Shown in pieces: positions 32,540-50,913 of a DNA stretch of 64,000 nucleotides. Source of the DNA: Gordonia jacobaea (GTDB lineage Bacteria > Actinomycetota > Actinomycetes > Mycobacteriales > Mycobacteriaceae); contig NZ_LDTZ01000016.1 in the NCBI RefSeq assembly GCF_001186365.1, forward strand, positions 62,001 to 126,000, given 5' to 3'. The notes under the pieces were generated by a model. The model had not been told where the DNA came from and did not search any database. It was given only the letters and a program-made list of their open reading frames with translations. How positions within the stretch are numbered: position 1 is the first letter of the stretch; each line of letters starts with the position of its first letter. A program made the position numbers and the translations under genes.

Positions 32540-32606
32540 GATCTACTCCCTTGATTCTTCGCGTGATGGATGTGGGCGCGATCGACGGGCGATCGCAACC
32601 AAACGA

Positions 32607-32618
32607 AGGCTACCCTAA
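32607..32618. promoter_or_regulatory. half-site resembling an IdeR/DtxR iron box
   Basis: AGGCTACCCTAA matches 11 of 12 bases of the right part of the IdeR consensus TTAGGTTAGGCTAACCTAA; the left part is not conserved. It is placed upstream of the flavodoxin gene, a logical iron-regulated target. Suggestive only. Nearby, 32638-32655 forms a GGAGCC-TTCTTC-GGCTCC hairpin. Confidence 0.3.
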
Positions 32619-32679
32619 CTGTCCACTTGGGCGCACCGGAGCCTTCTTCGGCTCCTTTGTCGGAAGGCGTTTACGAAAT

Positions 32680-32697
32680 TACTTGGATGTCCTAGTA
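32680..32697. promoter_or_regulatory. imperfect palindrome upstream of mmsA
   Basis: TACTTGGATGTCCTAGTA has two 8-bp arms with 7 complementary positions around TG. It is 105 bp before the mmsA start and probably binds a dimeric regulator of the valine-catabolic operon. Regulator unknown. Confidence 0.45.
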
Positions 32698-32802
32698 TGT
32701 GTGAGTACAGGGTCTGATGGCTCACATCTCCCGGCCCCATAAGCGTCACGACACTCGACGTCCACAATCCGAACCTCCACAACCCAGAACAGGTGATCAC
32801 CG

Positions 32803-34338: not shown

Positions 34339-34343
34339 GGGCG

Positions 34344-35522: not shown

Positions 35523-35568
35523 CCAACTCCACCTGACCACACATACTTCAACACAGGGAGAATCGACA

Positions 35569-36438
35569 ATGACGACGATCGCCTTTCTCGGACTCGGCAA
35601 CATGGGCGGCCCCATGGCCGCCAACCTCGTCAAGGCCGGACACACAGTGCACGGGTACGACCCGGTTCCCGAAGCGGTCAAGACCGCCGAAGCCGCGGGC
35701 GTGCAGACCTTTCCCACGGCGGTCGAGGCGGTCGCCATCGCCGAGGTCGTGATCACGATGCTCCCGAGCGGAGCCATCGTCAAGAAGCTCTACGACGAGA
35801 TCCTCCCCGCCACGGCAACGGGCGCGCTACTCATCGACAGCTCGACGATCTCCGTCGCCGACGCACGCGAAATCAATTCGCGCGCAGCCGATCATGGCTT
35901 CGCCCAGGTCGACGCCCCGGTCTCGGGCGGCGTGAAGGGCGCGGTCGCCGGCACGCTGGCGTTCATGGTCGGCGGCACCGAGGAAGCGTTCGTCGCCGCA
36001 CGACCGACGCTGGAACCGATGGCGGGCAAGATCATTCACTGCGGTGAGTCCGGCGCCGGCCAAGCCGCGAAGGTGTGCAACAACATGCTGCTCGCGGTTC
36101 AGCAGATCGCGGTCGGCGAGGCGTTCGTGCTGGCCGAGAAGCTAGGCCTGTCCGACGATGCGCTCTACGACGTGGTCACCGGCGCGACCGGAAACTGCTG
36201 GGCCATCGAGACGAACTGCCCGGTCCCCGGCCCGCAGCCGACCTCGCCCGCGAACAACGACTTCAAGCCGGGCTTCGCCACCGCGCTGATGAACAAGGAC
36301 CTCGGCCTCGCACTCGACGCCATCGCCGACACCGGTTCGCGCGCCCCCCTCGGCGAGCACGCCGCCGCGCTGTACCGCTCCTTCGCCGAACAGCACTCCG
36401 ACCTGGACTTCTCTGCGATCATCACGACCCTGCGCTGA
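35569..36438 (+). CDS. mmsB: 3-hydroxyisobutyrate dehydrogenase
   Basis: 289 residues from ATG 35569 (GGGAG upstream). N-terminal Rossmann motif FLGLGNMGGPMAANLVKAGH, substrate-binding DAPVSGGVKGAVAGTL, catalytic Lys168 in GAGQAAKVCNNML, and the C-terminal NKDLGLALDAI segment of the HIBADH family. It oxidises 3-hydroxyisobutyrate to methylmalonate semialdehyde, the substrate of MmsA, with NAD. Third gene of the operon. The enoyl-CoA hydratase and 3-hydroxyisobutyryl-CoA hydrolase of the pathway are not in the window. Confidence 0.95.
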   Translation: MTTIAFLGLGNMGGPMAANLVKAGHTVHGYDPVPEAVKTAEAAGVQTFPTAVEAVAIAEVVITMLPSGAIVKKLYDEILPATATGALLIDSSTISVADAREINSRAADHGFAQVDAPVSGGVKGAVAGTLAFMVGGTEEAFVAARPTLEPMAGKIIHCGESGAGQAAKVCNNMLLAVQQIAVGEAFVLAEKLGLSDDALYDVVTGATGNCWAIETNCPVPGPQPTSPANNDFKPGFATALMNKDLGLALDAIADTGSRAPLGEHAAALYRSFAEQHSDLDFSAIITTLR

Positions 36439-36454
36439 ACTCGCCGAGCCGACC

Positions 36455-36563
36455 TCGCTGGTCGAGCCGATCCCGCTGGTCGAGCCTGTCGAGACCACCC
36501 GCCGCCCGAGCTGAACTCGCTGGTCGAGCCCGACTCGCTGGTCGAGCCTGTCGAGACCACGCC
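36455..36563. repeat. repeat units CGCTGGTCGAGCCTGTCGAGACCAC
   Basis: Four copies (two full, two short) of a CTGGTCGAGCC(TGTCGAGACCAC) unit follow mmsB. They are the same family as the GATCGAGCTTGTCGAGATCACC copies elsewhere, with C/T and A/G variation. The rest of 36564-36722 holds one copy of GATCAGTATGACG (36592-36604) and no gene. Confidence 0.8.
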
Positions 36564-36722
36564 GTCGGCGGCGCAACCCGCTACGGCCGCGGATCAGTAT
36601 GACGCGCAGCCCGAAATGTGTGTCGTATCGGAAGATGTGGGTGCTGCAGCACACAGATCCTTCGGTTCGACACACGTCTAGCCCGGCCGGGCTGCTGGCG
36701 TGCAACGGGTCGCAAGGTCTAG

Positions 36723-37235
36723 TTGGAGCCGGGGTGCGTACACAATCGTGACGTGAGCGGGGCGCCGAGGAGATTATTGTCTTGGCGTCGCGCTGACGAC
36801 CGAGTTGTGTACGCGCTGTGCGGGTGTGGTGTTTGGTGGGCGTTGGGCAAGGTGGCGCGGGCCCCGACCAGCGGCGCATCCGGGTCGAGAGCACTGGGCC
36901 CGGTGGGTGATCTCGACAGGCTCGATCGGCGGGGTGGGGCTCGATCAGCGGGTGGGCTCGATCGGCGGGGTGGGCTCGATCGGCGGCCGAACGGCTTCGC
37001 GGCGGAGGGCGACTACCTGATCGACGTCGCGTTTCCCGCCGCGATGCTCGCCGTCGAGATCGACGGCTTCGCATACCACCGGGACGCGAAGACTCTTCAG
37101 CATGACCGCACTCGACGCAACGCCCTGATCGCCAAGGGCTGGACGGTACTGAACTTCACGTGGTCTGACCTAGTAGAGCGGCCCGACTACGTGATCAGTT
37201 CGATAGAGGCGGCCCTCGAAGCGGCAGCAGCCTGA
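36723..37235 (+). CDS. DUF559 endonuclease-like protein interrupted by repeat sequence
   Basis: 170 residues from TTG 36723, or 160 from GTG 36753. The C-terminal 75 residues are a DUF559/VSR-like nuclease fold: DYLIDVAFPAAMLAVEIDGF, YHRDAKTLQHDRTRRN, and GWTVLNFTWSDLVERPDYV. Family members normally run to about 280 residues with a helical N-terminal domain. Here residues about 60-92 (DNA 36903-36992) are instead translated dispersed repeat (DLDRLDRRGG-type peptide). This looks like a deletion derivative with an in-frame repeat insertion, possibly a remnant. The active-site-type Asp and Glu are still present. Confidence 0.6.
   Translation: MEPGCVHNRDVSGAPRRLLSWRRADDRVVYALCGCGVWWALGKVARAPTSGASGSRALGPVGDLDRLDRRGGARSAGGLDRRGGLDRRPNGFAAEGDYLIDVAFPAAMLAVEIDGFAYHRDAKTLQHDRTRRNALIAKGWTVLNFTWSDLVERPDYVISSIEAALEAAAA
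36903..36992. repeat. dispersed repeat copies inside the DUF559 frame
   Basis: GGTGATCTCGACAGGCTCGA at 36903 is the reverse complement of the intergenic unit. It is followed by three GGCTCGATCGGCGGGGTG/GGCTCGATCAGCGGGTG copies. The reading frame stays open through all of them. Confidence 0.8.
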
Positions 37236-37283
37236 TCAGTATGACGAGAAGGCCAGAAATCCGGCGAGATTGTCATACTGATC
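37234..37283. terminator. 12-bp inverted repeat between convergent genes
   Basis: GATCAGTATGAC at 37234-37245 is perfectly repeated in inverse as GTCATACTGATC at 37272-37283, with a 26-nt spacer containing a GCC/GGC inner stem. It lies between the convergent DUF559 and marR genes and may be a bidirectional terminator, although no T run is present. The left arm plus G recurs as a 13-bp direct repeat at 36592-36604, so the DUF559 segment is flanked by it. Confidence 0.45.
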
Positions 37284-37324
37284 GACGACGTTCGGGCGCG
37301 ATGCAGGTCCGGCGCGATCCAGGC

Positions 37325-37828
37325 TCAGAAGTCGCCTGCGTTGTGGCGCAGTTCGTGGATCGCGTCGACGAGGCCGCTGATCTGGTCCGAGGTCATTCCG
37401 ACGTCGGCGAACACCTCGCGGTTGAGCGTCGCGGTGGCGTCTTCGACAGTCGAGCGGCCCAAGTCGGTGATCTCGACGAGCGTGGTGCGGCCGTCGGTGG
37501 GGTGGGGGAGGCGTCGAACGAGTTGCGCCTCCTCGAGGCGTCGAATCGCATGGGTGACGCTGGTGACGTGCACCTGCAGGCGGTCGCTGGCCTTGGTGAT
37601 CGGCAGTGCACCGTTGCGCGAAAAGGCAAGCAGCCGAAGCAATTCGTAGCGCGAGAAGGTCAGATCGTAAGGGCGGAGCGACGATTCGACGCGGGCCAGC
37701 AGGATCTGGTGGGCCCGCATCACGGAGGTCACCGCGACCATCCCGTCTGCGACGTCGCCCCAGCCGGCCGACGTCCAATTTGCCTTCGCCTCGGCGATCG
37801 GGTCGAACTCCATGCTGTGCCCTGCCAT
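37325..37828 (-). CDS. MarR-family regulator
   Basis: 167 residues; ATG 37813 (MEFDPIAEAK) is an alternative start. Winged helix: YDLTFSRYELLRLLAF, LPITKASDRLQVHVTSVTHA as recognition helix, and the wing VRRLPHPTDGRTTLVEITDL. Such proteins bind short palindromes and often respond to aromatic or lipophilic ligands. Target unknown. It is followed, in its own direction, only by the DUF559 region; the TetR gene lies upstream on the same strand, 89 nt away. Confidence 0.92.
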   Translation of the reverse strand: MAGHSMEFDPIAEAKANWTSAGWGDVADGMVAVTSVMRAHQILLARVESSLRPYDLTFSRYELLRLLAFSRNGALPITKASDRLQVHVTSVTHAIRRLEEAQLVRRLPHPTDGRTTLVEITDLGRSTVEDATATLNREVFADVGMTSDQISGLVDAIHELRHNAGDF

Positions 37829-37917
37829 GGCTGTCAGCCTATCTGCCGTCGACGCCGCCGGATGCCGCCCGGGGCTCCGCGCGTCTGCACTGCCGATCGC
37901 GCCGACCCTCCCGAGCG

Positions 37918-38565
37918 TCAGGCGCGGCTGCTGTGCGTGAGCAGCATCTCGATCGCGCCCACAATCGTGTCGACGAGGTCGGCGGCGGTGCGGCCGTCGA
38001 GTTCGTCGCGTTGCTCGTCGGAGCGGAGCATGATCATCGATTCGACGAGGCGGAAGGGGAGCAGGCTGCGGGTGTCTGTGGGGTCGTCGAGTACAGCGGC
38101 GGCGAGGGTTTCGTAGGCGGCGGCGAGTTCGCTTCGCGCTGTGCGGAATTGGGCGTAACGGTCGTCGCCCACCTCAGGAAGCAGGTACAGCGAGCCGAGG
38201 TTCCAGCGTTCGTCGACGAGTTGTGTGGCGTCGAATCGTGCGAGGTCGAGGAGTCGGTCGAGGGGTGCGCGGTCGTCGTCGAGCAGTTCTCTTGCGCGCT
38301 CGAGAGATCCGACGACGGTGGCGTCGAGCAGTGCGGCGAGGATGTCGTCCTTGTTCTTGAAGTAGTGGTACATCGACGCCTGGCGGATGCCGACGGCCTC
38401 GGCGATCATGCGAGTCGACGTCCCGGTGTATCCGTGGCGGCAGAAGAGTTCGGCTGCGGCGTCGAGGATTTCCTCACGCGCGGTGGCGCCTCGCCTGCGC
38501 TGTTCGACGAGGCGCGGTCGGCCGGGGCCTGGCGCCACTCGGCCTTGCCGGGACGCAGTACTCAT
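37918..38565 (-). CDS. TetR-family regulator divergent from the permease/DUF1989 operon
   Basis: 215 residues. Helix-turn-helix: REEILDAAAELFCRHGYTGT, MIAEAVGIRQASMYHYFKNK. The C-terminal domain (RARELLDDDRAPLDRLLDLA onward) is ligand-binding. It is transcribed away from the permease and urea/guanidine-carboxylation-type genes. Three matching palindromes TCTATCNNNTGNNNGATA (38735, 38769, 40404) lie only in front of those genes, so this protein is the prime candidate for binding them. Confidence 0.9.
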   Translation of the reverse strand: MSTASRQGRVAPGPGRPRLVEQRRRGATAREEILDAAAELFCRHGYTGTSTRMIAEAVGIRQASMYHYFKNKDDILAALLDATVVGSLERARELLDDDRAPLDRLLDLARFDATQLVDERWNLGSLYLLPEVGDDRYAQFRTARSELAAAYETLAAAVLDDPTDTRSLLPFRLVESMIMLRSDEQRDELDGRTAADLVDTIVGAIEMLLTHSSRA

Positions 38566-38734
38566 CTGGAAGCTCTTTCATTCGTGCCGAGGCGTGGGTT
38601 GCGGCGATAGCGTCATCGAGTCTAGTCCGACCAATTCGCGGCGATTTCGCGATCTGAGCCGGCCGCAATGCGTGGGGTCGAAGCGACCTGGACCTCGTAA
38701 CACGCTCGTAGCGTGAGTTTCCATCCCCGCAACA

Positions 38735-38752
38735 TATCTGTCACCCGATAGA
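38735..38752. promoter_or_regulatory. operator copy 1 (TetR-type palindrome)
   Basis: TATCTGTCACCCGATAGA; its reverse complement TCTATCGGGTGACAGATA aligns with the copies at 38769 and 40404 in 13 or more positions. In the tetR-permease intergenic region. Confidence 0.6.
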
Positions 38753-38768
38753 AAAAGCTCGAGCGTTA

Positions 38769-38786
38769 TCTATCAACTGGCAGATA
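38769..38786. promoter_or_regulatory. operator copy 2 (TetR-type palindrome)
   Basis: TCTATCAACTGGCAGATA, 17 bp after copy 1 and 41 bp before the permease start. Two adjacent sites suggest cooperative repression of the permease and/or the divergent regulator. Confidence 0.65.
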
Positions 38787-38826
38787 AACCCGCTCAATGT
38801 GGAGCCTCACCTCGAAGGAACTCACG

Positions 38827-40391
38827 ATGACCTCCACCGCACAACCCGACTCCAAGGCTCCCGCCGGCACCTCGCCCTCGAGCGACGTCGACGACGCCGA
38901 CTCACTCGCCCAACTCGGCTACAAGCAGGAGTTGCACCGCGGCATCGGAGGATATGCCGCGTTCGCCTCCGGCTCTCGTTCGTCTCGATCCTCACCACCG
39001 TGTTCGCGCTGTTCGCGCTCGGCTTCGGTCTGGGCGGTCCCGCGTTCTTCTGGACCTGGCCGATCGTCTTCGTGTGCCAATTCTGCGTGTGCCTCGTCTT
39101 CGCGGAGCTCTCCGGGAAGTTCCCCGTCGCCGGTGCCGTCTATCAATGGTCTCGACGACTCGCCGGTGACGGAGTCGGCTGGTTTGCCGGCTGGTTCATG
39201 CTCGTCGGTTACATCGTCAGTGTGGCGGCACTGGCCATCGCGATGCAGAGCGTGCTTCCCGAGATCTGGTCGGGCTTCCAATTCGTCGGCGACGACACAA
39301 GTCTCACGTCCGTCTCGGGTGCTACGAATGCGATCATCCTGGGCACCATCACGATCATCGGCTGCACGATCATCAGCGGTGTCGGCGTGAGCTTCATGGG
39401 CAAGATCACCGTCACGGGCGTGACCATCGAGATCATCGGCGTCGTGGCGCTCGTCGTCGCGATGTTCATCAAGGCGGAACGCTCCCCGGCGGCGGCGATC
39501 GCGAACACCGGAGAACACGGACAGGGACTCGGCTACTTCCCGGCTTTCCTCGCTTCGATGCTCATGGCCTGCTACGTGATGTACGGATTCGACAGCGCTG
39601 CAGAGCTTTCCGAAGAGACCAAAGATCCTCGACGCACCGCGCCGAAGGCGATCATCAACGCGCTGCTCGTTTCGTTCGTCGGCGGAGGTCTGATGATCAT
39701 CGGTGCGCTCATGGCCGCTCCGTCACTCGGTGCGCCGGAACTCTCGGCTCAGGGAATCGCCTGGGTCATCACCTCGCAACTCAACACCGTCCTCGGTAAG
39801 GCGCTGCTGATCATCGTCGCGATCTCGATCTTCTCCGCGACTCTCGCCATTCAGGCGTCGGCCTCCCGAGTGATGTTCTCGATGGCGCGCGACAACCGTC
39901 TTCCCTTCGGTTCAGCACTGGCAAAGGTCAACCCGCGCACCGGAACTCCCGTCATCACCGGCATCGTCGTCTCGGCGTTGGCGATTCTGATCTTGCTCGT
40001 CAACCTCGGGCAGGCGGGCGTCTTCGCTGCGATCACCAGCGTGTCGGTGGTCATCGTGTACCTCGCCTACCTGATGGTCACGGTGCCCGCACTCATCCAT
40101 CGCCTGCGCGGAACCGAATTGAGCCACGGCCGACCGGTTTTCGGCCTCGGTAAGTGGGGCATCCCGGTCAACATCATCGCCGTCGTCATGGGTGGTCTGC
40201 TGATGGTGAACATCGCCTGGCCTCGCGCGGAGGTCTACGACCCCGACGGCGGCAACTGGGTACTGCAGTACTTCGCGATCCTCTTCGTCGCGGCGACGCT
40301 GATCGTCGGATTCCTCGCGTACCTCAAGGTCAAGGGCCAGCCGGGAGCGCCGGAACCCGAAGACGCACTCGTCGGACGGAAGCGCTCGTAG
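38827..40391 (+). pseudogene. APC-family permease of the urea/guanidine-carboxylation cluster, frameshifted
   Basis: An amino-acid/polyamine-type permease of about 521 residues if intact. The N-terminus starts at ATG 38827 (AAGGAA upstream) and reads well to GIGGYAAFASG near 38973; the expected continuation SFVSILTTVFALFALGFG is in the next frame. Insertion of one base between 38973 and 38974 (GGC nTC TCG TTC) restores a normal family sequence with about 12 helices to the stop at 40391. So there is a 1-nt deletion, either a real inactivating mutation or a sequencing error. The family fits the permease regularly found beside urea/guanidine carboxylase genes. Confidence 0.85.
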
Positions 40392-40403
40392 CGATTGCCG
40401 CAA

Positions 40404-40421
40404 TATCGATCAACTGATAGA
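40404..40421. promoter_or_regulatory. operator copy 3 (TetR-type palindrome)
   Basis: TATCGATCAACTGATAGA (reverse complement TCTATCAGTTGATCGATA), 12 bp after the permease stop and 105 bp before the first DUF1989 gene. It implies a second promoter under the same regulator. Confidence 0.6.
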
Positions 40422-40525
40422 TTTGTCAACCGAGCGACGACGCCCTGCCGGACCGTATCGAGTCCGTGCAGCCGACCACCGGGACGGCCCGGAACCTCGC
40501 CAGCTCATTCTCGAAGGACGTCGAC

Positions 40526-41377
40526 ATGACCACCTCGACCACCACCTCCACATCCTCCACCGCCGGTGCCCGCGCGCATGCTCGTGCACAGGCCGGAGCC
40601 ATCACCGACTCCATGCCCGTGGTGCCTGCCACCGACTGGCCGACGACGATCACCGACGTCGACTCGTCGACGCTCACCTGGGCCGAGACCGTTCCCGGCG
40701 GCAGGTACACCACCAAGGTGCTCGCCCGCGGAACGCGAATCCGATTGCGCGACATCACCGGTGACGCGTGTGCACACCTGCTCCTGTGGCGCGTCGACGC
40801 CCCGTGGGAGCGCCTGAACGTCGCCGACACCGTCAAGGTGCCCTGGCAGGCCTACCTCACCACCGGCCACCCACTGCTGAGCGATCAGGGCAGGGTGCTC
40901 GCCACCATCGTCGACGACACCAGCGCGCACCACGACGCGCTCACGGGCACAACCACACTCGCCGACAACGCCGCCAAATACGGCCACGGAGAGGCATATT
41001 CGACGACTCCCGCGGGGCGTGAGCTCCTCAAGCTGGCTGCGGCCAAGAACGGATTGACGCCCACCGATGTGGCGCCATCGCTCTCGCTCTTCGAGGGAGT
41101 GAAGGTCGACGACGAGGGATCGTTCGAGTTCCAGGGGAGCGCGGGCGCAGGCAAGAGCGTCGACCTGCTTCTGCACCTGCCGTGCATCGTGGCGATCGCC
41201 AACACCGCGCACCCGCTCGACCCAAGCGCGGATTTCCGCTCGGGACCCCTCGAAGTGCTCGCATGGCGTGCCACCGACGACCTCGACGCGCTGCTCGCCG
41301 GCGTCGCCGACCGCGACCCCGAATACCAGCGCGCCGTCGCCAACAGCGAAGACGTGTACGGCGCGACGCGCTTCTGA
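40526..41377 (+). CDS. DUF1989 protein, urea-carboxylase-associated protein 1 type (carboxyguanidine deiminase-like)
   Basis: 283 residues from ATG 40526 (GAAGGAC upstream); the first 35 residues are a Thr/Ser/Ala-rich extension. The body is a DUF1989 domain: VPGGRYTTKVLARGTRIRLR, DACAHLLLWRVDAPWERLNV, and LFEGVKVDDEGSFEFQG. Proteins of this pair were long called urea amidolyase-associated; in the characterised guanidine pathway the two DUF1989 proteins (CgdA and CgdB) form carboxyguanidine deiminase, which makes allophanate. Which of the two this gene corresponds to I did not determine. It is separated from its partner by a 230-bp repeat-containing gap. Confidence 0.82.
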   Translation: MTTSTTTSTSSTAGARAHARAQAGAITDSMPVVPATDWPTTITDVDSSTLTWAETVPGGRYTTKVLARGTRIRLRDITGDACAHLLLWRVDAPWERLNVADTVKVPWQAYLTTGHPLLSDQGRVLATIVDDTSAHHDALTGTTTLADNAAKYGHGEAYSTTPAGRELLKLAAAKNGLTPTDVAPSLSLFEGVKVDDEGSFEFQGSAGAGKSVDLLLHLPCIVAIANTAHPLDPSADFRSGPLEVLAWRATDDLDALLAGVADRDPEYQRAVANSEDVYGATRF

Positions 41378-41383
41378 CGCCGA

Positions 41384-41563
41384 GTGGTTTCGACTCGGGT
41401 GCTCGCTGCGCTCGCGCCCGGCTCAACCAGCGGAATGCCAGTGGTTTCGACTCGGGTGCTCGCTGCGCTCGCGCCCGGCTCAACCAGCGGGAAGCTCGCG
41501 CCCGGCTCAACCAGCGGGAGGCTGGCGCCCGGCTCGACCGCCGAAATGCCGTGTCGAAACCAC
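41384..41563. repeat. repeat block bounded by 11-bp inverted repeats within the operon
   Basis: Two copies of a 57-bp unit start at 41384 and 41441 (GTGGTTTCGACTCGGGTGCT, then CGCTGCGCTCGCGCCCGGCT), followed by three shortened CGCGCCCGGCTCAACCAGCG units. GTGGTTTCGAC at 41384-41394 and GTCGAAACCAC at 41553-41563 are exact inverse copies that frame the block. Related sequence recurs at 58188-58676. It fills the gap between the two DUF1989 genes; no gene is present. Confidence 0.85.
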
Positions 41564-41608
41564 CACCCCCACCCCCGAACTCAACACATCCGAACGCAAG
41601 GACCAATC

Positions 41609-42277
41609 ATGACCACCACGATCAATCCCACCACCGCCCCGGCGGCCGACCTCGCGCTCGTGCCTGGCGACGTCATCTACGACGGCATCGTCGCAGAGCG
41701 CGCTCCCTGGTCGGAAGTCGTTGCCGCGGGCGACGTTGCGACCATCGTCGACCTCCACGGCAACCAGGCCGTCGACACGCTGTTCTACGGCGGTCACGAC
41801 CACTCGATCCGCTACTCGGCGCAGACAACCATTGCCGCGCAGGGGAATATCTTCCTCACGACCGGCACGGTCATCCGTGACCAGGAGTCGCAGCCGATGA
41901 TGACGATCGTCGCCGACGAGGTCGGCAATCACGACACCCTCGGCGGTGCGTGCTCGCAGGAGTCCAACACGCTGCGCTACGGCCACCACACCAAGCATCA
42001 GCACGCTTGCGTCGAGAACTTCCTCATCGGCGGCTCACGTCACGGCCTCGGCAAGCGAGATCTCGTCGGCAACGTCAACTTCTTCATGAACGTGCCCGTC
42101 GACCCCGACGGTGCACTCGGAATCGTCGACGGACTGTCCGCACCGGGCAAGCGCCTCGCACTCCGTGCCGAGGTCGACACCCTCGTGCTCGTGTCCAACT
42201 GCCCCCAGATCAACAACCCCTGCAACGGATTCGACCCGACTGCCGTCCGCGTGATCGTCACGCGGCCGCGGGGCTGA
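41609..42277 (+). CDS. DUF1989 protein, urea-carboxylase-associated protein 2 type (carboxyguanidine deiminase-like)
   Basis: 222 residues from ATG 41609 (GCAAGGA upstream); the open frame before it is repeat sequence. DUF1989 features: IVDLHGNQAVDTLFYGGHDH, TIVADEVGNHDTLGGACSQE, and a Cys/His-rich segment HHTKHQHACVENF followed by NFFMNVPVDPDG, consistent with a metal or catalytic Cys centre. Partner of the preceding DUF1989 gene. 26 nt upstream of the carboxyltransferase gene. Confidence 0.85.
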   Translation: MTTTINPTTAPAADLALVPGDVIYDGIVAERAPWSEVVAAGDVATIVDLHGNQAVDTLFYGGHDHSIRYSAQTTIAAQGNIFLTTGTVIRDQESQPMMTIVADEVGNHDTLGGACSQESNTLRYGHHTKHQHACVENFLIGGSRHGLGKRDLVGNVNFFMNVPVDPDGALGIVDGLSAPGKRLALRAEVDTLVLVSNCPQINNPCNGFDPTAVRVIVTRPRG

Positions 42278-42303
42278 CCGAGTACCGACCGCCAGGAGAC
42301 GAG

Positions 42304-44358
42304 ATGAACAGTCAGACAACACAGTTCGACGGCGTCGACGTGCTACGCGCCGGACCCATGACCACCATCCAGGATTGGCCCGGCCGCGTCGGTTACTGGA
42401 AGGTCGGGGTCCCGCCGTCGGGTCCGATGGACGACCTTTCCTTCCGGCTCGCCAACATGGCCGTCGGTAATCCGGTCGACGCCGCGGGGCTCGAAGTGAC
42501 GATGCTCGGACCGCGCCTGCGCTTCTCGACGTCGGCAACGGTTGCCGTGACCGGCGCTCCGGTCGCGTTGACCCTCGACGGAGTCGTTGTGCCCCAATGG
42601 GTCCCGCTCACAGTGCCGGCGGGCGGTGTGCTCGACATCGGAGCCGTGGGCTCCCTGGGGCTTCGTGTGTACATCGCGATCTCCGGGGGTGTCGAGGCTG
42701 AGGAGTACCTCGGCAGCCGTTCCACGTTCACGATGGGCAAGTTCGGCGGACTCGACGGTCGCGTCCTCGCCGACGGCGACATTCTGGCGCGCGCGGGTCT
42801 CCCGACAGGGAACCCGACGCGGATTCTCACCGAGGAGCAGCCCGCGTTCACGAATGCATGGCAGCTCGGTGTGACGGTCGGACCGCACTCGGCCCCGGAG
42901 TTCTTCACTCCCACCGACATCGCCGAGATCATGGGCACCGACTATCAGGTGCACTTCAACTCCGACCGCACCGGTATTCGCCTGGTCGGTCCCAAACCGC
43001 AGTGGGCGCGGACCGACGGCGGCGAGGCGGGACTGCATCCCTCGAACATTCACGACAACGCGTATTCGGTTGGAGCGCTGGACTTCACCGGCGACACCCC
43101 GATCCTGCTCGGTCCGGACGGACCGAGCCTCGGCGGGTTCGTCTGCCCGGTTACGGTGACGGCGTCGGAGCGCTGGAAACTCGGGCAGCTGAAGCCCGGT
43201 GACACGGTGCGGTTCGTCGCGGTCAAGGCGGCGGAGGCGGCGTCGCCGGCAGAACTGGGTCTCGCACGCAGAGCGTGCTTCGTCGACGTGCTCTCTCGCG
43301 GAGGCGATTCCGACAGCGGAATCCTGGGAACCACGACGACGGCCGACGGCACCACGTCGGTGACCTACCGCCGCAGCGGCGACGACAACATCCTCGTCGA
43401 ATACGGCGACATGCGCCTCGATCTCGCTCTTCGCGCCCGCGTGCACGCGCTCGCCGAGCGGATCGAAGCGGAGAATCCCGCGGGCCTCGTCGACCTGACG
43501 CCTGGGATCAGATCGCTTCAGGTGAAAGCAGATCCGACGAAGTGGTCGCAGCTCGCCATGCGGGACTGGCTCATCGAGTGTGAGAGCCAGTTGCCGGCAG
43601 CGTCGGAACTCGTAGTGCCCAGTCGCACAGTGCATCTGCCGCTGTCGTGGGACGACCCGGCCACGCGCGAGGCGATCGAGCGATACATGCTCGGTGTACG
43701 CTCCGACGCACCCTGGTGTCCGTGGAACATCGAGTTCATCCGGCGCATGAACGGACTCGACTCGGTCGACGACGTGCATCGGATCGTGTTCGACGCCGAC
43801 TATCTCGTCCTCGGTCTCGGCGACGTGTATCTCGGTGCGCCCGTGGCAGTTCCGCTCGATCCGCGGCATCGACTGGTCACGACAAAGTACAACCCTGCAC
43901 GTACCTGGACTCCCGAGAACGCCGTCGGCATCGGCGGCGCCTACCTGTGTATTTACGGGATGGAGGGGCCTGGCGGCTATCAGTTCGTCGGCCGCACCAC
44001 GCAGGTCTGGAACCATCGCTATCCGCAGCAGGCTCCAGGCTTCGATCCCGAACATCCTTGGCTGCTCCGCTTCTTCGACCGCATCAAGTGGTACCCGGTC
44101 GGCGCCGACGAACTGCTGGACATGCGGGCCGACGTCGCGGCGGGCCGCGGCGACAGCGTGCGCATCACCGAGGGCACCTTCTCACTGGCAGAACACGAGC
44201 GCTTCCTCGCCGACAACGCCGACGCCATTGCCGCGTCCCGCACGACGATGGAGTACGCGCGCGCCGAAGAGCGTGAACGATGGTCCTTGGCCGGAGAGTT
44301 CACGACGACCGAGCAGAATGAGACCGACAGCTCCGATCCGAAGGGGAAGGTTGCATGA
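42304..44358 (+). CDS. carboxyltransferase-only urea/guanidine carboxylase-like protein
   Basis: 684 residues from ATG 42304 (CAGGAGACGAG upstream). Two domains: KipA/AHS2-like (about 10-320; VLRAGPMTTIQDWPGRVGYW, GVPPSGPMDDLSFRLANMAV) and KipI/AHS1-like (about 345-620; ILVEYGDMRLDLALRARVHA, PWNIEFIRRMNGLDS, YPQQAPGFDPEHPWLLRFFD). These correspond to the carboxyltransferase part of urea or guanidine carboxylase. A complete enzyme has about 1200 residues with an N-terminal biotin carboxylase and a C-terminal biotin carrier; neither is present, and no A-M-K-M biotinylation motif occurs. The adjacent genes do not supply them. It must borrow biotin subunits from elsewhere or work differently. The stop overlaps atzF by 4 nt. 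Confidence 0.85.
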   Translation: MNSQTTQFDGVDVLRAGPMTTIQDWPGRVGYWKVGVPPSGPMDDLSFRLANMAVGNPVDAAGLEVTMLGPRLRFSTSATVAVTGAPVALTLDGVVVPQWVPLTVPAGGVLDIGAVGSLGLRVYIAISGGVEAEEYLGSRSTFTMGKFGGLDGRVLADGDILARAGLPTGNPTRILTEEQPAFTNAWQLGVTVGPHSAPEFFTPTDIAEIMGTDYQVHFNSDRTGIRLVGPKPQWARTDGGEAGLHPSNIHDNAYSVGALDFTGDTPILLGPDGPSLGGFVCPVTVTASERWKLGQLKPGDTVRFVAVKAAEAASPAELGLARRACFVDVLSRGGDSDSGILGTTTTADGTTSVTYRRSGDDNILVEYGDMRLDLALRARVHALAERIEAENPAGLVDLTPGIRSLQVKADPTKWSQLAMRDWLIECESQLPAASELVVPSRTVHLPLSWDDPATREAIERYMLGVRSDAPWCPWNIEFIRRMNGLDSVDDVHRIVFDADYLVLGLGDVYLGAPVAVPLDPRHRLVTTKYNPARTWTPENAVGIGGAYLCIYGMEGPGGYQFVGRTTQVWNHRYPQQAPGFDPEHPWLLRFFDRIKWYPVGADELLDMRADVAAGRGDSVRITEGTFSLAEHERFLADNADAIAASRTTMEYARAEERERWSLAGEFTTTEQNETDSSDPKGKVA

Positions 44359-46034
44359 CCAAGATCGACGACATCTACACCGCGATCCGCGACACCGACC
44401 GGCCCGAGGTGTTCATCACCCTTCGCCCGGAGGCCGACGTCGCAAGCGACTACCAGCAATCCGTGGCGAGCGATGGACCGCTGGCCGGAGCGATTCTCGC
44501 CGTAAAAGACAACGTCGACGTCGCGGGATTGCCCACGACCGCAGCGTGTCCCGGGTATGCCTACGTGCCCGACGCAGATGCGCCCACGGTTGCCGCGCTG
44601 CGCAAGGCCGGCGCGGTCGTCATCGGAAAGACCAATCTCGACCAGTTCGCCACCGGTCTCGTCGGAACCCGTAGTCCCTATGGCGCCGTGCGTGATTCAC
44701 GGCGTACCGATCGAATCTCCGGCGGGTCGAGTTCCGGTTCTGCGGTTGCCGTCGCACTCGGTTTCGCCGACATCGCGATCGGTACCGACACCGCAGGGTC
44801 GGGCCGTGTTCCGGCAGGTCTGCAGGGGATCGTCGGCGTGAAGCCGACCGTTGGCGCGATCTCCACCGACGGGATTGTGCCCGCGTGTGCCGACTACGAC
44901 GTCCCGACGATCTTTGCCGCCGACCTCGAGCTTGCGAACCTGGCCACCGCAGTGATGGCGCAGGCAACCGGCGAGCGGCCATTCGACAGCGAGAGTCGGT
45001 TTGCAGCGCCCGAGGCTCCGATCATTGCGGTGCCCGCCGACCTCCCCGAGCTCGACGACCGCTGGCGCGACGCCTTCCGTGAGGCTGTGGCCGCGGCCGA
45101 GGCTGCGGGCTTCACGATCAAGACCGTCGACCTGACGCCCTTCCTCGCCGCAGCACGACTGCTCTACGACGACGCCCTCGTGTCCCAGCGTTACGACGCC
45201 GTCGGTGAGTTCATCGACAGCGCAGCGGACTCCGACGATATCGGACTCGATCCCGTTGTGGCGCAAATCGTGTCGAAGGCATCCGGCTACACCGCCGTCG
45301 ATCTGCTCCGTGCGCGACGTCGACTCGCCGAGCTCAGGGCGTTGGCGATGGAGCAATGGGGTGACGCGACGGCACTGATGGTGCCGACCGCGCCGTTCCA
45401 CCCACGGATCGACGAGGTCGTCGCCGACCCGATCGGCGTCAACAGCCGGATGGGCACGTACACGAACTTCTGCAATCTGTTCGACCTCTGCGGATTGGCG
45501 GTCCCGGCAGGCGTCGTCGACGAAGCCGACGGAACCCGATCCGAGTTCGGTATCACGCTCCTCGCGGGTGCTCACGAGGACGCGGTTCTCATCGATCTTG
45601 CTCGGCGACTGCGGGTTTCGGCAGCCGACTCCCAGCACGGCGCGTCGGCACCGACGTGGCCCGAGCGGGTAGCGCCATCGGTCGAGCTCGCCGTGTTCGG
45701 CGCGCACATGGCTGGTGGCCCGCTGACGCACGAGCTCAGCGACCGCGGCGCGCGCTGGGGTAGGGAAGTACGCACAGCGCCGTCGTATCGTCTTGTGGCA
45801 CTGGATACGACGCCACCCAAGCCGGGTTTGATCCGCGACCTCGATGCGGGTCGTGTCATCGAAGGGGAGAGCTGGGTCCTGTCGCCCGCGGCGCTGGGCG
45901 AGTTCCTCGCCGCGCTGCCGCAACCGATGATGCTGGGCAAGGTCGAGCTCGCCGATGGTAGCTGGGTGGTCGGATTCGGATGCGACGCGCAGGCCGGCGA
46001 GTCGGGGCGTCCGCTCGACCGCACGCGGTGGTGA
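44355..46034 (+). CDS. atzF: allophanate hydrolase
   Basis: 559 residues, start overlapping the previous stop (ATGA). Amidase-signature domain (residues 1-about 430) with Lys51 (AVKDNVDVAG), cis-Ser in GGSSSGSAVAVA (about residue 125) and nucleophile Ser149 in GTDTAGSGRVPAGLQG. The extra C-terminal domain (about 440-559; VFGAHMAGGPLTHELSDRGA, EGESWVLSPAALGEFLA) is specific to allophanate hydrolases and decarboxylates N-carboxycarbamate. It splits allophanate to ammonia and CO2, the last step of urea-carboxylase and guanidine-carboxylase routes. Last gene of the cluster. Confidence 0.93.
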   Translation: MTKIDDIYTAIRDTDRPEVFITLRPEADVASDYQQSVASDGPLAGAILAVKDNVDVAGLPTTAACPGYAYVPDADAPTVAALRKAGAVVIGKTNLDQFATGLVGTRSPYGAVRDSRRTDRISGGSSSGSAVAVALGFADIAIGTDTAGSGRVPAGLQGIVGVKPTVGAISTDGIVPACADYDVPTIFAADLELANLATAVMAQATGERPFDSESRFAAPEAPIIAVPADLPELDDRWRDAFREAVAAAEAAGFTIKTVDLTPFLAAARLLYDDALVSQRYDAVGEFIDSAADSDDIGLDPVVAQIVSKASGYTAVDLLRARRRLAELRALAMEQWGDATALMVPTAPFHPRIDEVVADPIGVNSRMGTYTNFCNLFDLCGLAVPAGVVDEADGTRSEFGITLLAGAHEDAVLIDLARRLRVSAADSQHGASAPTWPERVAPSVELAVFGAHMAGGPLTHELSDRGARWGREVRTAPSYRLVALDTTPPKPGLIRDLDAGRVIEGESWVLSPAALGEFLAALPQPMMLGKVELADGSWVVGFGCDAQAGESGRPLDRTRW

Positions 46035-46137
46035 GGCACTTTTCTTGAAACCGTCCGTTCTCGCCGAATCGTGGTGATTGAATCCTCCCTAGCTCGGGGA
46101 CGGTACTCGAGCCGATGTCTCGGAGGGGGCAAGCCAC

Positions 46138-47745
46138 ATGGCTCAATCGGCGGTGAACGGTGCGGGGCGCGGTGGAGTTCGTCGAGCGGAGAAGCAGGAT
46201 CGACGCCGCAAGCGCAAGGCCGGTCAGCGAGCCGCCGCCGGCGCCGTGGCGGTGGCCGCCGCAACCACGCTGAGCTTCGGGCAGACGGTCGGGGCGGGGC
46301 ACGCTGAGGCCGGGGTCGCCGACGACATCGTCAATTCGATTGTCGATGGGGCCGGGACGGTCGCGGGCGTGTGGAACATCGACGTCTGCGCCACCGGCGA
46401 GACGAAAGGAAACGCCAACTGCGACGCCGCGACAAAGCTCGGGGTCGCGGTGGTCCTGCCGGACGAGATCTCCGTCATCCCGAGCGGCAACAACACGGCG
46501 CATGGATCGGCCGTCGTCAAGGGGTCGGGTTACGAGTTCGCTTTGGCGGGTCGCGAGGGCACGGCGACGGCGATCGCTTACCTGCCGGTGAGTCTCGCGA
46601 CCGCGGGGGCGACAGATGGACGTACTGCCTGGTCGTTCGCCGTGCTCGGAATGGCGAACGCATGGACGACGGATGCTACAGATGTCACGGCCTGGCACGA
46701 CGGACCGCGCTTGACCAGCGTGCCGGGCGTGGCGTCGGTTGGCTGCTACGGAGGATTGACCGCAGGTTATGCCGAAGGCGTCGGCGCATGCAGCAATGTC
46801 CTGGGGACATTCGATTTTCGCTACTCCGAGCTCGACGAGACCAAGCACAACCTGACGATTCCCGAGGTTCAGTTCGCACTGACCGACCCGACCGCGGTGC
46901 TCTCGGATCCGGCGGGCGTTTTCGCGGACGTGATCAGCGACCTGCTGCAGGGTAGAACTCCTACTCTCAGCAAGGACTTCACCAGGCTCACCGTCGGAGG
47001 TGATCGGACGGATGCTTACGGTCTGCCCGTCTTGCTCACCCTCACAAGCGATTACGGCACGCAGGCGCCCATCGTGGTGCACTGGCTCGGCTCGTCGGTG
47101 ACGTTCAATCCGACGGTGACGGTCAACGGCAAGGTCAAGCCGAATCATCTGGGACTTCCCGTGATCACCCTCGGCTACGTCGACACGGCACAGTTGTTGC
47201 CGACAGTCGACATCCCCGAGATCGCGTTCCCGTTCGGGGTGCCGTCGGTGGGCCCGTTCGGCGGGTCGAGCAGCGCCGCCGGCACGTCGAAGATCACCGC
47301 CCTGCGTGCGAGCAGCACAAGCGAGGCCACTGCTCCCACAGAGACCGACACCGAGACCCCGGCGGCGTCGAGCGCACCGATCGTCGCCAACGAAAGCAGC
47401 ACGGCAACAAAGCAATTCGACGCTCCTTCGGTACCGGAATCGACAGCTGATGCCGCGCAGGGGAATTCGTCGAGTCTCGGCGCCTCGGGGTACGTGGGCA
47501 AGCATCGCTCGCTCGGCGACTACGTGGGCAAGCACCGTTCGAGCGACGGCACAGGCGACCGGGCCGACGCGGCGTCGAACAGCTCCCCGAGTGCCGAAGC
47601 CACGACCGACTCTTCTGACACCAAGGCCTCCGACCTCCAAGCCCCCGACACCCAAGCCCCCGACACCCAAGCCCCCGACGCGAATGCCTCGGAAGCCGCA
47701 TCGGGGTCAGCGCAGTCGACCGTTAGCGCCGCGGGCGGACAGTAG
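46138..47745 (+). CDS. secreted protein with duplicated YVGKHRS motif
   Basis: 535 residues, ATG with GGAGG upstream. A very basic n-region (RRAEKQDRRRKRKAGQRAA) precedes a signal sequence (about 32-58, ending HAEA). The exported domain (60-360) contains paired Cys and beta-rich sequence. The last 170 residues are low-complexity Ser/Thr/Ala/Glu, with GYVGKHRSLGDYVGKHRSSD (about residues 450-470) and tandem QAPDT pentamers near 500. I do not recognise the domain. The motif duplicates in DNA at about 47491-47541. Probably a cell-surface protein; the basic motif could bind envelope polymer. Single gene. Confidence 0.7.
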   Translation: MAQSAVNGAGRGGVRRAEKQDRRRKRKAGQRAAAGAVAVAAATTLSFGQTVGAGHAEAGVADDIVNSIVDGAGTVAGVWNIDVCATGETKGNANCDAATKLGVAVVLPDEISVIPSGNNTAHGSAVVKGSGYEFALAGREGTATAIAYLPVSLATAGATDGRTAWSFAVLGMANAWTTDATDVTAWHDGPRLTSVPGVASVGCYGGLTAGYAEGVGACSNVLGTFDFRYSELDETKHNLTIPEVQFALTDPTAVLSDPAGVFADVISDLLQGRTPTLSKDFTRLTVGGDRTDAYGLPVLLTLTSDYGTQAPIVVHWLGSSVTFNPTVTVNGKVKPNHLGLPVITLGYVDTAQLLPTVDIPEIAFPFGVPSVGPFGGSSSAAGTSKITALRASSTSEATAPTETDTETPAASSAPIVANESSTATKQFDAPSVPESTADAAQGNSSSLGASGYVGKHRSLGDYVGKHRSSDGTGDRADAASNSSPSAEATTDSSDTKASDLQAPDTQAPDTQAPDANASEAASGSAQSTVSAAGGQ

Positions 47746-47811
47746 CCTTCCACGCGATCTGACTGTTTGTTACAACGGAAGAGGCCGATCACTCGACACG
47801 AGGAGACGACG

Positions 47812-48039
47812 ATGAGCGGACCGATCTCAGGCGAAGACCTGCCCGAAGGCGTCGTCGACCCCGAAGCGCCACTCGACGACGAGCCCGGCGAATCGCTTGC
47901 CGACGATGCGCCGCTCGACGAGTTCGTCGACCCCCTTGCGGGAGTCGAACCGCCACAAGCCGACGACGTTCCGAGCGCGGATTACGTCGAACAACACCTC
48001 GACGTCGACGAGGTGGAACCACCCCGGCGCGACGACTGA
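47812..48039 (+). CDS. small acidic hypothetical protein
   Basis: 75 residues from ATG 47812, with GAGGAG 10 nt upstream; a longer frame from 47767 has no such site. Very acidic, Asp/Glu/Pro-rich, no hydrophobic segment, ending PPRRDD, probably disordered. I do not recognise it; short disordered proteins of this kind are common in Gordonia-like genomes. Confidence 0.55.
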   Translation: MSGPISGEDLPEGVVDPEAPLDDEPGESLADDAPLDEFVDPLAGVEPPQADDVPSADYVEQHLDVDEVEPPRRDD

Positions 48040-48191
48040 CCGCAAAACCCCATTTGACCCTGAAACGTCGGCAGACTCGAGAACCCCGTTGGCTACAGTG
48101 GAGCCATCGAAGCAGGTTAGGCCCGATGTGTCGCCGACCGCTCGCTCACCGGAGTCAAGCGGTCGACGGTGGCGCACGCTAGGAGGAAGTC

Positions 48192-48386
48192 ATGGCGATC
48201 GATCCCGCAAAGAGCAAGGCAGTCTCGCAAGTGGTGCGCGAGCATCCCGGAATGAGCCTTGTGGCAATGTCACCCGGCATCGTGGTCTTTCTCCTGGTAG
48301 GAATCTTCGCGAATTGGTTCCTGGCGATCGTGCTCGGCGTCGCAATGGTCGCAGGCGGGTACTACGTGCTGACGCGACAGAAGTGA
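48192..48386 (+). CDS. small membrane protein
   Basis: 64 residues with an excellent ribosome-binding site (AGGAGGAAG, 48180-48188). A cytoplasmic N-terminus (AIDPAKSKAVSQVVREHPG) is followed by one long or two short transmembrane segments (residues 23-58) and a basic end. No recognised family. Confidence 0.65.
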   Translation: MAIDPAKSKAVSQVVREHPGMSLVAMSPGIVVFLLVGIFANWFLAIVLGVAMVAGGYYVLTRQK

Positions 48387-48435
48387 GCAGGGCATAACCG
48401 GTGCGAGGACGACTGCGGACGGGTGACGCTCACTC

Positions 48436-49353
48436 GTGGGCAACGAGGCCCCGACGGTGAGCGCACGCGTCGACGCCTACATCTGGGCCATCCGGCTCAC
48501 AAAAACACGTTCGGCTGCAGGGGACGCATGCCGAGGTGGTCATGTTCGTGTCAACGGGGCGACCGCGAAGCCCGCGCAGCACGTCAGCATCGGCGACGAG
48601 GTGCGCCTCCGGCTGGGTGGTCGTGAGCGCATCGTCGAGGTGACCCAGGTGATCACCAAGCGAGTGTCGCCCGCGGCGGCGTCGGCCTGCTACATCGACA
48701 AGAGCCCACCCCCGCCTGCCAAGGAGATCCTGGCGAGTCAGCCACGACGCGATCGCGGTGCCGGCCGGCCGACGAAACGCGAGCGACGCGAGATCGACAA
48801 GCTGATGCGCGGTGGCTTCCTCGTGTCGTTGGCGGTAGTGATCGCGCTGATCGGCAGTGCCTGCTCGTCGGACTCCGACGATTCGGGAGGCAACAGCAAC
48901 GGCAACGCTGCGGCGCCGCCGGCGAAGGCGGGGTCGGGTCCGTTCTTCGGTGAATGCGGAGGCGTCACCACAGAGGAGGTCAACAACCTCACAAAACTCG
49001 GCACGCTGACCAACACGGTGAACAATTCGTCGGTGTGTGAGTGGTCGTCGAGCGCTGATCGCACCGGACCGGTGGCATCGTTCAACTGGTATCGCGGCTC
49101 ACCTATCGGACGTGAGCGCGCCACCGAGCAACTCTCCCGCGAGTCGACCAAAGACATAGAGATCAACGGACACAAGGGATTCATCGCATCCGACACAGGC
49201 ATCTGCGAGATCGGAATCGCCTTCGGTGCCGACTTCTTCGAGTGGTCGGTGAGCGCCGGTACCTCATCACTGAGCGCGCAGGCCCCCGACACCCAACAGA
49301 TCTGCGACGCCACGCGTGAGCTCTCCGCGATGTCGATCGAGCGTGCGTCATGA
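48436..49353 (+). CDS. S4-domain RNA-binding protein fused in frame to a DUF3558-type lipoprotein
   Basis: 305 residues, GTG start. Residues 9-60 are an S4 RNA-binding domain of the Hsp15 type (VDAYIWAIRLTKTRSAAGDA, CRGGHVRVNG), and the usual Hsp15-like tail PTKRERREIDKL follows at about 110-123. Normally such a protein stops there. Here the frame runs on into MRGGFLVSLAVVIALIGSAC, a lipoprotein signal with lipobox-like GSAC, and a DUF3558-like domain with Cys pairs. ATG 48805 could start the lipoprotein separately, but its ribosome-binding site is weak. A cytoplasmic RNA-binding domain joined to an exported domain is unusual: two genes merged by loss of a stop or frame change, or a bicistronic frame. 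Confidence 0.75.
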   Translation: MGNEAPTVSARVDAYIWAIRLTKTRSAAGDACRGGHVRVNGATAKPAQHVSIGDEVRLRLGGRERIVEVTQVITKRVSPAAASACYIDKSPPPPAKEILASQPRRDRGAGRPTKRERREIDKLMRGGFLVSLAVVIALIGSACSSDSDDSGGNSNGNAAAPPAKAGSGPFFGECGGVTTEEVNNLTKLGTLTNTVNNSSVCEWSSSADRTGPVASFNWYRGSPIGRERATEQLSRESTKDIEINGHKGFIASDTGICEIGIAFGADFFEWSVSAGTSSLSAQAPDTQQICDATRELSAMSIERAS

Positions 49354-49904
49354 GGCGCGTGAGACGCGTCGTCGTGCCGTTGCTTGTCGCTCTGGCCGTG
49401 CTTGTCGGTGCGCTTTCGGGCTGCACCGTCGACGGCCAGGCAGTCTCGTCCGAACAGGCCAACGCCGATCAGCCCGGCAACGTCGACACCGACCGATTCG
49501 ACAAGTTGACCCTCGAATGCCAGGTGCTCTCGACAGCTCAGATCGCCAAAGCGGTCGGCGGAACGTCGGCTCGGGGCACCTTCAACGGCGCGATCTGCCG
49601 ATGGATCGTCGACGGGCCGGTCGCCGCGAACGTCACCTTCAACTGGTTCGAATGGGGCGACTTCAACGTCGAGAAAGACACCGCCAAGCGGCTCGGCTAC
49701 ACAACCGAGAACGTCCGGATCGTGAGTCAGGCTGCGTTCACGCAACGCGACCCCAAGCGCCCAGGGGTGTGCGGCGTGACCAGTCGCGCGCCCACACGTG
49801 GCGTCTACACGTTCTGGGTCGAACCGATCGGCGGAGCGGCAGCTGCCGACCCGTGCGCCGCCCCGACGAAGCTGATGGAACTACTCCTCAACGGTGGTCA
49901 ATAG
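49350..49904 (+). CDS. DUF3558-type lipoprotein
   Basis: 184 residues, ATG overlapping the previous stop by 4 nt. Basic N-terminus, hydrophobic segment and lipobox LSGC (Cys25) give a lipoprotein. The mature domain has ECQVLSTAQIAKAVGG and CRWIV, the DUF3558 pattern also seen in the C-terminal part of the preceding protein, so the two look like tandem paralogues. Outer surface of the cytoplasmic membrane; function unknown. Confidence 0.82.
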   Translation: MRRVRRVVVPLLVALAVLVGALSGCTVDGQAVSSEQANADQPGNVDTDRFDKLTLECQVLSTAQIAKAVGGTSARGTFNGAICRWIVDGPVAANVTFNWFEWGDFNVEKDTAKRLGYTTENVRIVSQAAFTQRDPKRPGVCGVTSRAPTRGVYTFWVEPIGGAAAADPCAAPTKLMELLLNGGQ

Positions 49905-49968
49905 TCGCTGCCGCGACGGCAGCCAGCAATGACCGACCGGCGCCGCCGCGCTCGCCGAGGCATGATCT

Positions 49969-50913
49969 ATGCCCATGGGAGACTCCGGGTTTCGATTCTT
50001 GCGTGCGCTGCTCGTACCGGCGCTGGCGGCACTTGCGATCGTGAGTGTCGGATCGGTCGCCGACGCGGCCCCGGGCACCCGGTGTGCCGGCGCGACGGTC
50101 ACCACCAGGACTGCCTCGCCGTCTCCGACGGGTTGGGCAGAGAATCTCACGTTCGATCCCTCGGGCAACCTCTGGGTCTCACGTCTCTACGAGAATTCGG
50201 TGGAACGCTATGACCGCTCCGGACGGCGCACCGCAACCGTCCCGGTGTGGGCGCCCGGCGCGTTGCGCGTCGGTCCAGGCGGTGATCTGTACGTGAACTC
50301 GGGTGACCAGTTGTCGTTCGGCACGGAGCGCAACGGCGTCGTCGTAAAGCTTGATCCGCTTGCAGCTCAACCTAATCCGACGGTCTACGCGCGCGGGTTC
50401 GCGATGCCCAACGGGCTGGCGTTCGACGCGGACGGGTTCGGATACGTCGTCGACAGTTCGCTCGGAGTTGTCCGGGTCGCGCCCGGTGGTGCCATCGACC
50501 GACGCTGGACGGATAGGGCCCGCGCGGCGTTGGCCACCTCGCCGGCCGTCAACGGGATCAGCCCCAATGGCGCGGTGGTCATCGGCAACGACCTCTACCT
50601 GACCTTCACGGCAAGTCGAACGGGACGGGTCGTCGCGGTACCGCTCGACGATCCCGGCTCGATGCGTGTCGTCGCCGACCTCACGGCTCCGCTGCCCGGC
50701 CTGCTCGACGACCTCACCGCGCTGGACCCGCACACCATCGCTGTCACGTCGACGCTCGGCTCGCTCATCCTCGTCTACGTACGCACGGGCGCACACTGCA
50801 GCATTGCACTCGGCCGACCGGCGACGGCCATCGCCGTGCAACCCACGGATTCGCGCGCCCTGGTGGTCGCGTCGGAGAGCGGTGACCTGCTCGACGTACG
50901 GCTCGCCAAATGA
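49969..50913 (+). CDS. secreted NHL/SMP-30-like beta-propeller protein
   Basis: 314 residues; ATG 49975 is an equally good start. A signal peptide (about 1-33, ending ADAA) precedes repeated beta-propeller blades: LTFDPSGNLWVSRLYENSVE, LRVGPGGDLYVN, GLAFDADGFGYVVD. This resembles SMP-30/gluconolaconase-like or strictosidine synthase-like propellers, which are hydrolases or binding proteins. The substrate is not readable. Single gene. Confidence 0.75.
   Translation: MPMGDSGFRFLRALLVPALAALAIVSVGSVADAAPGTRCAGATVTTRTASPSPTGWAENLTFDPSGNLWVSRLYENSVERYDRSGRRTATVPVWAPGALRVGPGGDLYVNSGDQLSFGTERNGVVVKLDPLAAQPNPTVYARGFAMPNGLAFDADGFGYVVDSSLGVVRVAPGGAIDRRWTDRARAALATSPAVNGISPNGAVVIGNDLYLTFTASRTGRVVAVPLDDPGSMRVVADLTAPLPGLLDDLTALDPHTIAVTSTLGSLILVYVRTGAHCSIALGRPATAIAVQPTDSRALVVASESGDLLDVRLAK

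Follow-up and report, generated by a model that had tools for sequence, protein, structure and literature searches.

Guanidine carboxylases of the TIGR02712 family, which are annotated as urea carboxylases, are fused enzymes with a biotin carboxylase (BC), a carboxyltransferase (CT) and a biotin carboxyl carrier protein (BCCP) in one chain. Guanidine and urea carboxylases are described as having Asp and Asn, respectively, at the position of K. lactis residue 1330, and Asp at position 1584 as required (Nature; PMC11410670). The K. lactis urea carboxylase/urea amidolyase (PDB 3va7, 5i8i) is of the urea type (Asn1330) and has BC and BCCP in one chain with the CT. The gene described here lies in a 64,000-nucleotide stretch of Gordonia jacobaea (contig NZ_LDTZ01000016.1, positions 62,001 to 126,000; below, the window) and encodes, unlike the fused enzymes, a CT without BC and BCCP. 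It is probably part of a split guanidine carboxylase, whose carboxybiotin would be supplied in trans by the alpha subunit of an acyl-CoA carboxylase, used in common by both enzymes; AccA3 is the likeliest candidate.

Sharing of a BC-BCCP subunit is already known for acyl-CoA substrates with AccD-type CTs. In mycobacteria, AccA3 is described as the alpha subunit common to AccD4, AccD5, and AccD6, one BC-BCCP subunit serving several CTs as in the proposed split enzyme, and AccA1 and AccA2 as pairing with AccD1 and AccD2 (PMC4347857; PMC11001197). A 2011 paper raised the question of whether urea-type CTs that lack a BC of their own work together with other BCs (PMC3199775). No description of a CT-only guanidine carboxylase was found in the open-licence literature.

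Domain content, ancestry and likely substrate

The protein has 684 amino acids, and its sole Pfam matches at E <= 0.001 are CT_A_B (PF02626, residues 34-305) and CT_C_D (PF02682, residues 354-574); the carboxyl transferase domain of AccD type is not among them. The TIGR02712 urea carboxylase model gives 970 bits, below its cut-off of 1303.85 bits, and is matched over positions 442-1122 of 1201, leaving positions 1-441 (BC) and 1123-1201 (BCCP) unmatched. An earlier sequence-only reading of this DNA, which saw two CT-type domains and no biotin modules, is confirmed in this respect. The flanking genes abut the CT gene on both sides (the UAAP2 stop at 42277 is 26 bases upstream of the CT ATG, and the start of allophanate hydrolase overlaps the CT stop) and therefore leave no room for a displaced BC or BCCP segment. 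In the window, tblastn with urea-carboxylase BC and BCCP and with three acyl-CoA carboxylase alpha subunits gave no match at E <= 1e-8, and none of the six BC (BC_C) and nine biotin/lipoyl matches of the genome (4.92 Mb, 41 contigs, 99.98% complete) falls there, just as had been claimed. A displaced or frameshifted BC segment, which the same reading had named as evidence to the contrary, was found neither in the window nor in the whole genome, and this candidate was rejected; the genome search also yielded no BC of urea-carboxylase type. The AlphaFold model of the CT has a predicted local distance difference test score of 76 and is weak near the active site (residues 236-252, 263-266, 507-511, and 527-566).

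Complete guanidine carboxylases and this protein have in common the CT domains, both signature Asp residues and the operon partners, and differ by the N-terminal BC and C-terminal BCCP. Judged by its sequence, the gene is best classed as a variant of guanidine carboxylase corresponding to the CT half, and it is not filed in the complete family because the two defining domains were tested for and not found. The CTs of full-length actinobacterial fused enzymes are 56-68% identical to it, share its operon partners and, in 49 of 50 cases, its signature Asp, and carry Ala, Ser or Asn instead of Asp221.

Searched across the order, 65 of 298 genomes have a match, fused, CT-only or partial. Named loci are the best 80 of 588 related loci; among these, a script assigned 44 as fused, 35 as CT-only, and one (L110) as a CT-only locus that lies about 8 kb from an unrelated BC. 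Locus L169 starts at a contig edge and carries a BCCP, and was therefore counted as fused, which gives 45 fused and 35 CT-only loci. Streptomyces accounts for half of the fused ones. The CT-only loci come from Gordonia, Williamsia, Mycobacterium, Mycolicibacterium, Mycolicibacter, Rhodococcus, Rhodococcoides, Nocardia, Skermania, and Dietzia, and in all 35 UAAP1 and UAAP2 flank the CT. In a class-wide sample, 53 of 393 genomes match; 17 of them belong to the own family and 36 do not. Among these 36, 33 have the match in frames of at least 1128 amino acids (a statement on frame length only), and G315, G364, and G401 (49-54% identity, frames of 342-859) were left unclassified.

In a tree of 116 CT rows, the 55 CT-only rows with Asp at the first signature position, two identical pairs from genomes seen twice included, form one clade (SH-aLRT 99) nested in the fused enzymes. 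A more careful tree of 44 rows, with 11 of these CT-only rows, supports the clade at 100/99; the root on the PxpC-PxpB outgroup, the branch of which is very long, was not resolved. The ratio of nonsynonymous to synonymous substitution rates (dN/dS) of the CT is 0.12-0.15 in four Gordonia comparisons and 0.06 and 0.10 in two closer pairs. From the single nested clade and the low dN/dS, it would appear that the biotin parts disappeared in one event and that selection has maintained the CT. Two of three domains are gone, and this strain has a frameshifted permease gene nearby, which could suggest that a fused gene is decaying here or has left a remnant without catalytic function; this is very unlikely, as the loss is common to loci under ten genus names, dN/dS is low, and the catalytic residues are retained. 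By analogy, the M. smegmatis operon genes, among them msmeg_2187 ('urea amidolyase'), also speak against decay, being reported, like MSMEG_0435-0436, as induced under nitrogen limitation.

The sequence-only reading left open whether the substrate is urea or guanidine. The signature positions were tallied in the same 116 rows, after exclusion of three of 119 loci (L068, L071, L073) because their CT is partial or split. At position 260, 55 CT-only rows and 49 fused ones (the contig-edge locus L169 among the latter) have Asp, a single fused row has Asn, and the remaining 11 rows, all CT-only, have Met; position 507 is Asp in all 116. These residues and the linkage to UAAP1 and UAAP2 support guanidine, not urea, as the CT substrate. 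The two domains are the same as in PxpC and PxpB of 5-oxoprolinase PxpABC, which likewise lack biotin parts, and a 5-oxoprolinase or another KipI/KipA-type hydrolase unrelated to guanidine could be envisaged. This is extremely improbable: the CT scores 126 bits with the PxpC model NF045499 (cut-off 500) and 35.4 bits with the PxpB model TIGR00370 (cut-off 145.55), it belongs to the urea-carboxylase clade with Asp260 and UAAP1/UAAP2 linkage, and the genome has a separate PxpB/PxpC pair on contig C2 (L024 7320-9160, minus strand), the best PDB matches of which are the MSMEG_0435-0436 chains of entry 9yx5.

The 11 rows with Met form a second CT-only clade (L056-L064, L067, L069; L068 and L071 uncounted), with CTs of about 50% identity. 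Its loci have DUF1989 pairs, allophanate hydrolase where the contig permits, and no BC or BCCP alongside; Met at the guanidine/urea signature position may mark a third substrate class. In genome G003 (L071 9178-11430, minus strand), the match to the distant CT is broken into two parts separated by about 360 bases, which would fit an inserted or diverged stretch in between.

Search for a replacement biotin subunit

The six BC proteins of the genome, as read from their loci and not assigned by model, include an AccA3-type subunit and a pyruvate carboxylase (both on C6). The four others are two BC-BCCP-CT chains, of 1867 (C11) and 1139 (C6) amino acids, and two alpha subunits adjoining AccD-type genes (C2 and C4). 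Of the carrier matches left, two are domains of a single frame of 604 amino acids, lipoyl by reading, and the third is a stand-alone BCCP of 71 amino acids (G000 C4:476409-476621; L025). In the 1139-residue chain (L023 8008-11427, minus strand), by reading a single-chain acyl-CoA carboxylase, the BCCP follows soon after the BC. The short gap made it a candidate for a dedicated BC-BCCP, rejected on account of its own C-terminal acyl-CoA-type CT. A frame of pyruvate carboxylase length near the CT in Mycobacterium (L089, L090) was set aside as a matter of location, since none of the 80 named loci has one in the flank that was covered.

The BC of a fused enzyme (G076) was used as a query in 32 genomes, eight with a fused gene and 24 without (17 CT-only genomes of the family and seven of the Met-type clade). 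It returned a BC of urea-carboxylase type (at least 59% identity and at least 511 bits) from each of the eight fused-gene genomes but from none of the other 24, where the best BC reached 54% and 420 bits. At E <= 1e-60, the number of BCs is 4-7 (mean 5.2) in the 17 CT-only genomes of the family and 4-6 (mean 4.7) in 20 relatives without the CT; in the largest genus the means are 4.67 (nine CT-only) and 4.53 (17 CT-less), and four CT-only genomes (G007, G095, G195, G262) have just four. Comparison of the 17 with the 20 revealed no dedicated BC present in the CT-only genomes and lacking in the relatives; the co-occurring stand-alone BC-BCCP gene that the sequence-only reading proposed to look for was thus not found among them.

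General subunits are present throughout. AccA3 (79-100% identity) and an AccA1-type subunit (59-100%) were found in all 37 genomes, with or without the CT. The stand-alone carrier was found in 37 of 40 genomes and, at E <= 1e-12, not in CT-only G191 and G238 or CT-less G074; its absence from the first two led to its rejection as an obligatory CT partner. A split guanidine carboxylase with a donor other than AccA3, either an AccA1-type or AccA2-like alpha subunit or the small BCCP loaded by a BC in trans, has in its favour the occurrence of the AccA1-type subunit in all 37 genomes, this subunit being the own-genome BC nearest to the urea-carboxylase BC (50%), and the presence of the small carrier gene in G. 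jacobaea. We regard it as unlikely, as mycobacterial AccA1 and AccA2 reportedly form separate pairs with AccD1 and AccD2 and the carrier was not detected in the two CT-only genomes. With no dedicated replacement found, elimination leaves two options for the CT: it draws on a biotin subunit of general purpose, or it works without one.

AccA3 as the proposed donor and the points against it

The shared-subunit reading is favoured because of the nested phylogeny, the lack of a dedicated BC, the presence of AccA3 in all 37 genomes, and a KipI/KipA-type pair in PDB entry 9yx5, entitled 'Structure of the long chain acyl-CoA carboxylase complex from Mycobacterium smegmatis with MSMEG_0435-MSMEG_0436 bound'. 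The chains of this entry include the AccA3 subunit, which the own-genome AccA3 matches at 1074 bits, and the PxpC/PxpB-type pair MSMEG_0435-0436. Title and chain names indicate that an AccA3 complex can accommodate a CT_A_B/CT_C_D pair lacking biotin parts. The pair resembles the G. jacobaea CT in having homologous CT domains without biotin parts and Asp at the position of residue 221, and differs from it in being two separate short proteins, distant homologs with 20-27% identity in structural alignments. Of the two explanations offered by the sequence-only reading, the shared biotin subunit has gained support and the biotin-free, 5-oxoprolinase-like reaction has been weakened.

We infer that the ancestor would have been an ordinary fused BC-CT-BCCP guanidine carboxylase, which in the ancestor of the mycolic-acid lineage would have lost the BC and BCCP ends once and retained the CT. 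The CT would now receive carboxybiotin in trans from the shared BC-BCCP alpha subunit, most likely AccA3, and pass the carboxyl group to guanidine. Carboxyguanidine would be converted to allophanate through deamination by UAAP1/UAAP2, and allophanate hydrolase would then free the remaining nitrogen.

Several observations weigh against this reading. Neighbourhood, fusion, and co-occurrence do not single out AccA3, because it is universal in the genomes compared and, like the AccA1-type subunit, occurs in CT-less genomes too. Fused genes also occur within the family (L124 and L130 from Mycobacterium, L133 from Smaragdicoccus, and G203, G297, and G293), and G021, G214, and G234 carry both forms; cells with AccA3 are therefore not always users of the split form. 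Allophanate hydrolase flanks the CT in 20 of the 35 named CT-only loci and is not adjacent in 15. The permease gene of the operon is frameshifted near 38970, with one frame up to there and another beyond, and the statement of the sequence-only reading that the rest of the cluster is complete does not hold; among 22 clustered permease genes compared, all 21 from relatives keep this stretch in one frame, and the frameshift could be a real loss or a draft-assembly error. The AccD proteins known to pair with AccA3 differ from it in CT fold, and AccD-type CTs act on acyl-CoA; unlike AccD4, AccD5, and AccD6, the CT described here is of the CT_A_B/CT_C_D type and has guanidine as its likely substrate.

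Residue 221 is a further point. The Asp spans both CT-only clades and is replaced by Ala, Ser or Asn in the fused enzymes (48 Ala, one Ser, and one Asn in 50 actinobacterial rows; three Ala, three Ser, and two Asn in eight proteobacterial rows). At the equivalent position of PxpC, Asp is found in M. smegmatis (MSMEG_0435) and Asn in E. coli YbgK and the own-genome PxpC. The class difference, together with Asp or Asn in PxpC, makes changed chemistry possible, and Asp221 may suit the site either to a carrier provided in trans or to a biotin-free reaction. Residues 537 and 540 were rejected as class-diagnostic because seven of the 50 actinobacterial fused rows, and several of the proteobacterial ones, carry the same letters.

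Asp221 and the lack of a dedicated BC or BCCP would fit a carboxylation independent of biotin, with another activated carboxyl donor (e.g., carboxyphosphate from ATP and bicarbonate) as in PxpBC-type cousins without own biotin. We hold such a reaction to be rather improbable. The CT seems to derive from fused enzymes and is otherwise little changed relative to them (263 of 292 positions), no extra domain is seen by Pfam, and one residue, which is Asn in two of the three PxpC proteins above, is slim evidence.

Operon context and significance

Table 1. Features of the CT-only operon and its surroundings (window coordinates).
Feature	Position	Strand	Remarks
TetR-type regulator	37918..38538	-	beside operon in relatives too
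Inverted repeat TTATCT-N10-AGATAA	38766-38787		upstream of permease; candidate operator of divergent TetR-type regulator
APC-type permease gene	about 38830-40391	+	by similarity to relatives' neighbours; putative guanidine import
UAAP1, DUF1989, putative other carboxyguanidine deaminase subunit	40466..41377	+	TIGR03425 288 bits, cut-off 206; start codon uncertain
UAAP2, DUF1989, putative one carboxyguanidine deaminase subunit	41609..42277	+	TIGR03424 325.5 bits, cut-off 284.7; function as described in the literature
CT-only guanidine carboxylase subunit (putative)	42304..44358	+	684 aa; CT_A_B then CT_C_D; no BC, no BCCP
Asp221 codon	42964..42966	+	Asp in 66/66 CT-only rows, 0/58 fused rows
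Asp260 codon	43081..43083	+	aligned with K. lactis 1330 (Asn there), guanidine/urea signature position
Asp507 codon	43822..43824	+	lines up with K. lactis Asp1584; a required residue of guanidine carboxylases
Allophanate hydrolase	44355..46034	+	TIGR02713 617.7 bits, cut-off 511

The inverted repeat is also found upstream of the operon in relatives. In 14 of 18 scanned regions, none of 200 mononucleotide shuffles scored as well, with a consensus derived from three of the same loci. The TetR-type regulator is, by context, a putative AmtR. The AmtR operon is described in PMC4222082, where msmeg_2184-2189 of M. smegmatis is reported to respond to GlnR and AmtR and no other AmtR target is among those given. 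A guanidine riboswitch was absent among three chance-level Rfam matches in positions 30000-50000 (E <= 5).

The proteins named here make the question of 2011 directly testable. If the proposal is true, BC-BCCP sharing extends across CT folds and across metabolism, nitrogen scavenging is coupled to a lipid carboxylase, and the reading of such 'urea carboxylase' or 'urea amidolyase' genes in Gordonia, Rhodococcus, Nocardia, and Mycobacterium would change. More tentatively, AccA3 may be a hub in mycolic-acid bacteria, serving both acyl-CoA carboxylases and KipI/KipA-fold CTs of nitrogen salvage (the CT-only guanidine carboxylase and the pair of 9yx5). A self-contained carboxylase might then have shed its biotin machinery and become a plug-in of a fatty-acid carboxylase, linking guanidine nitrogen to lipids.
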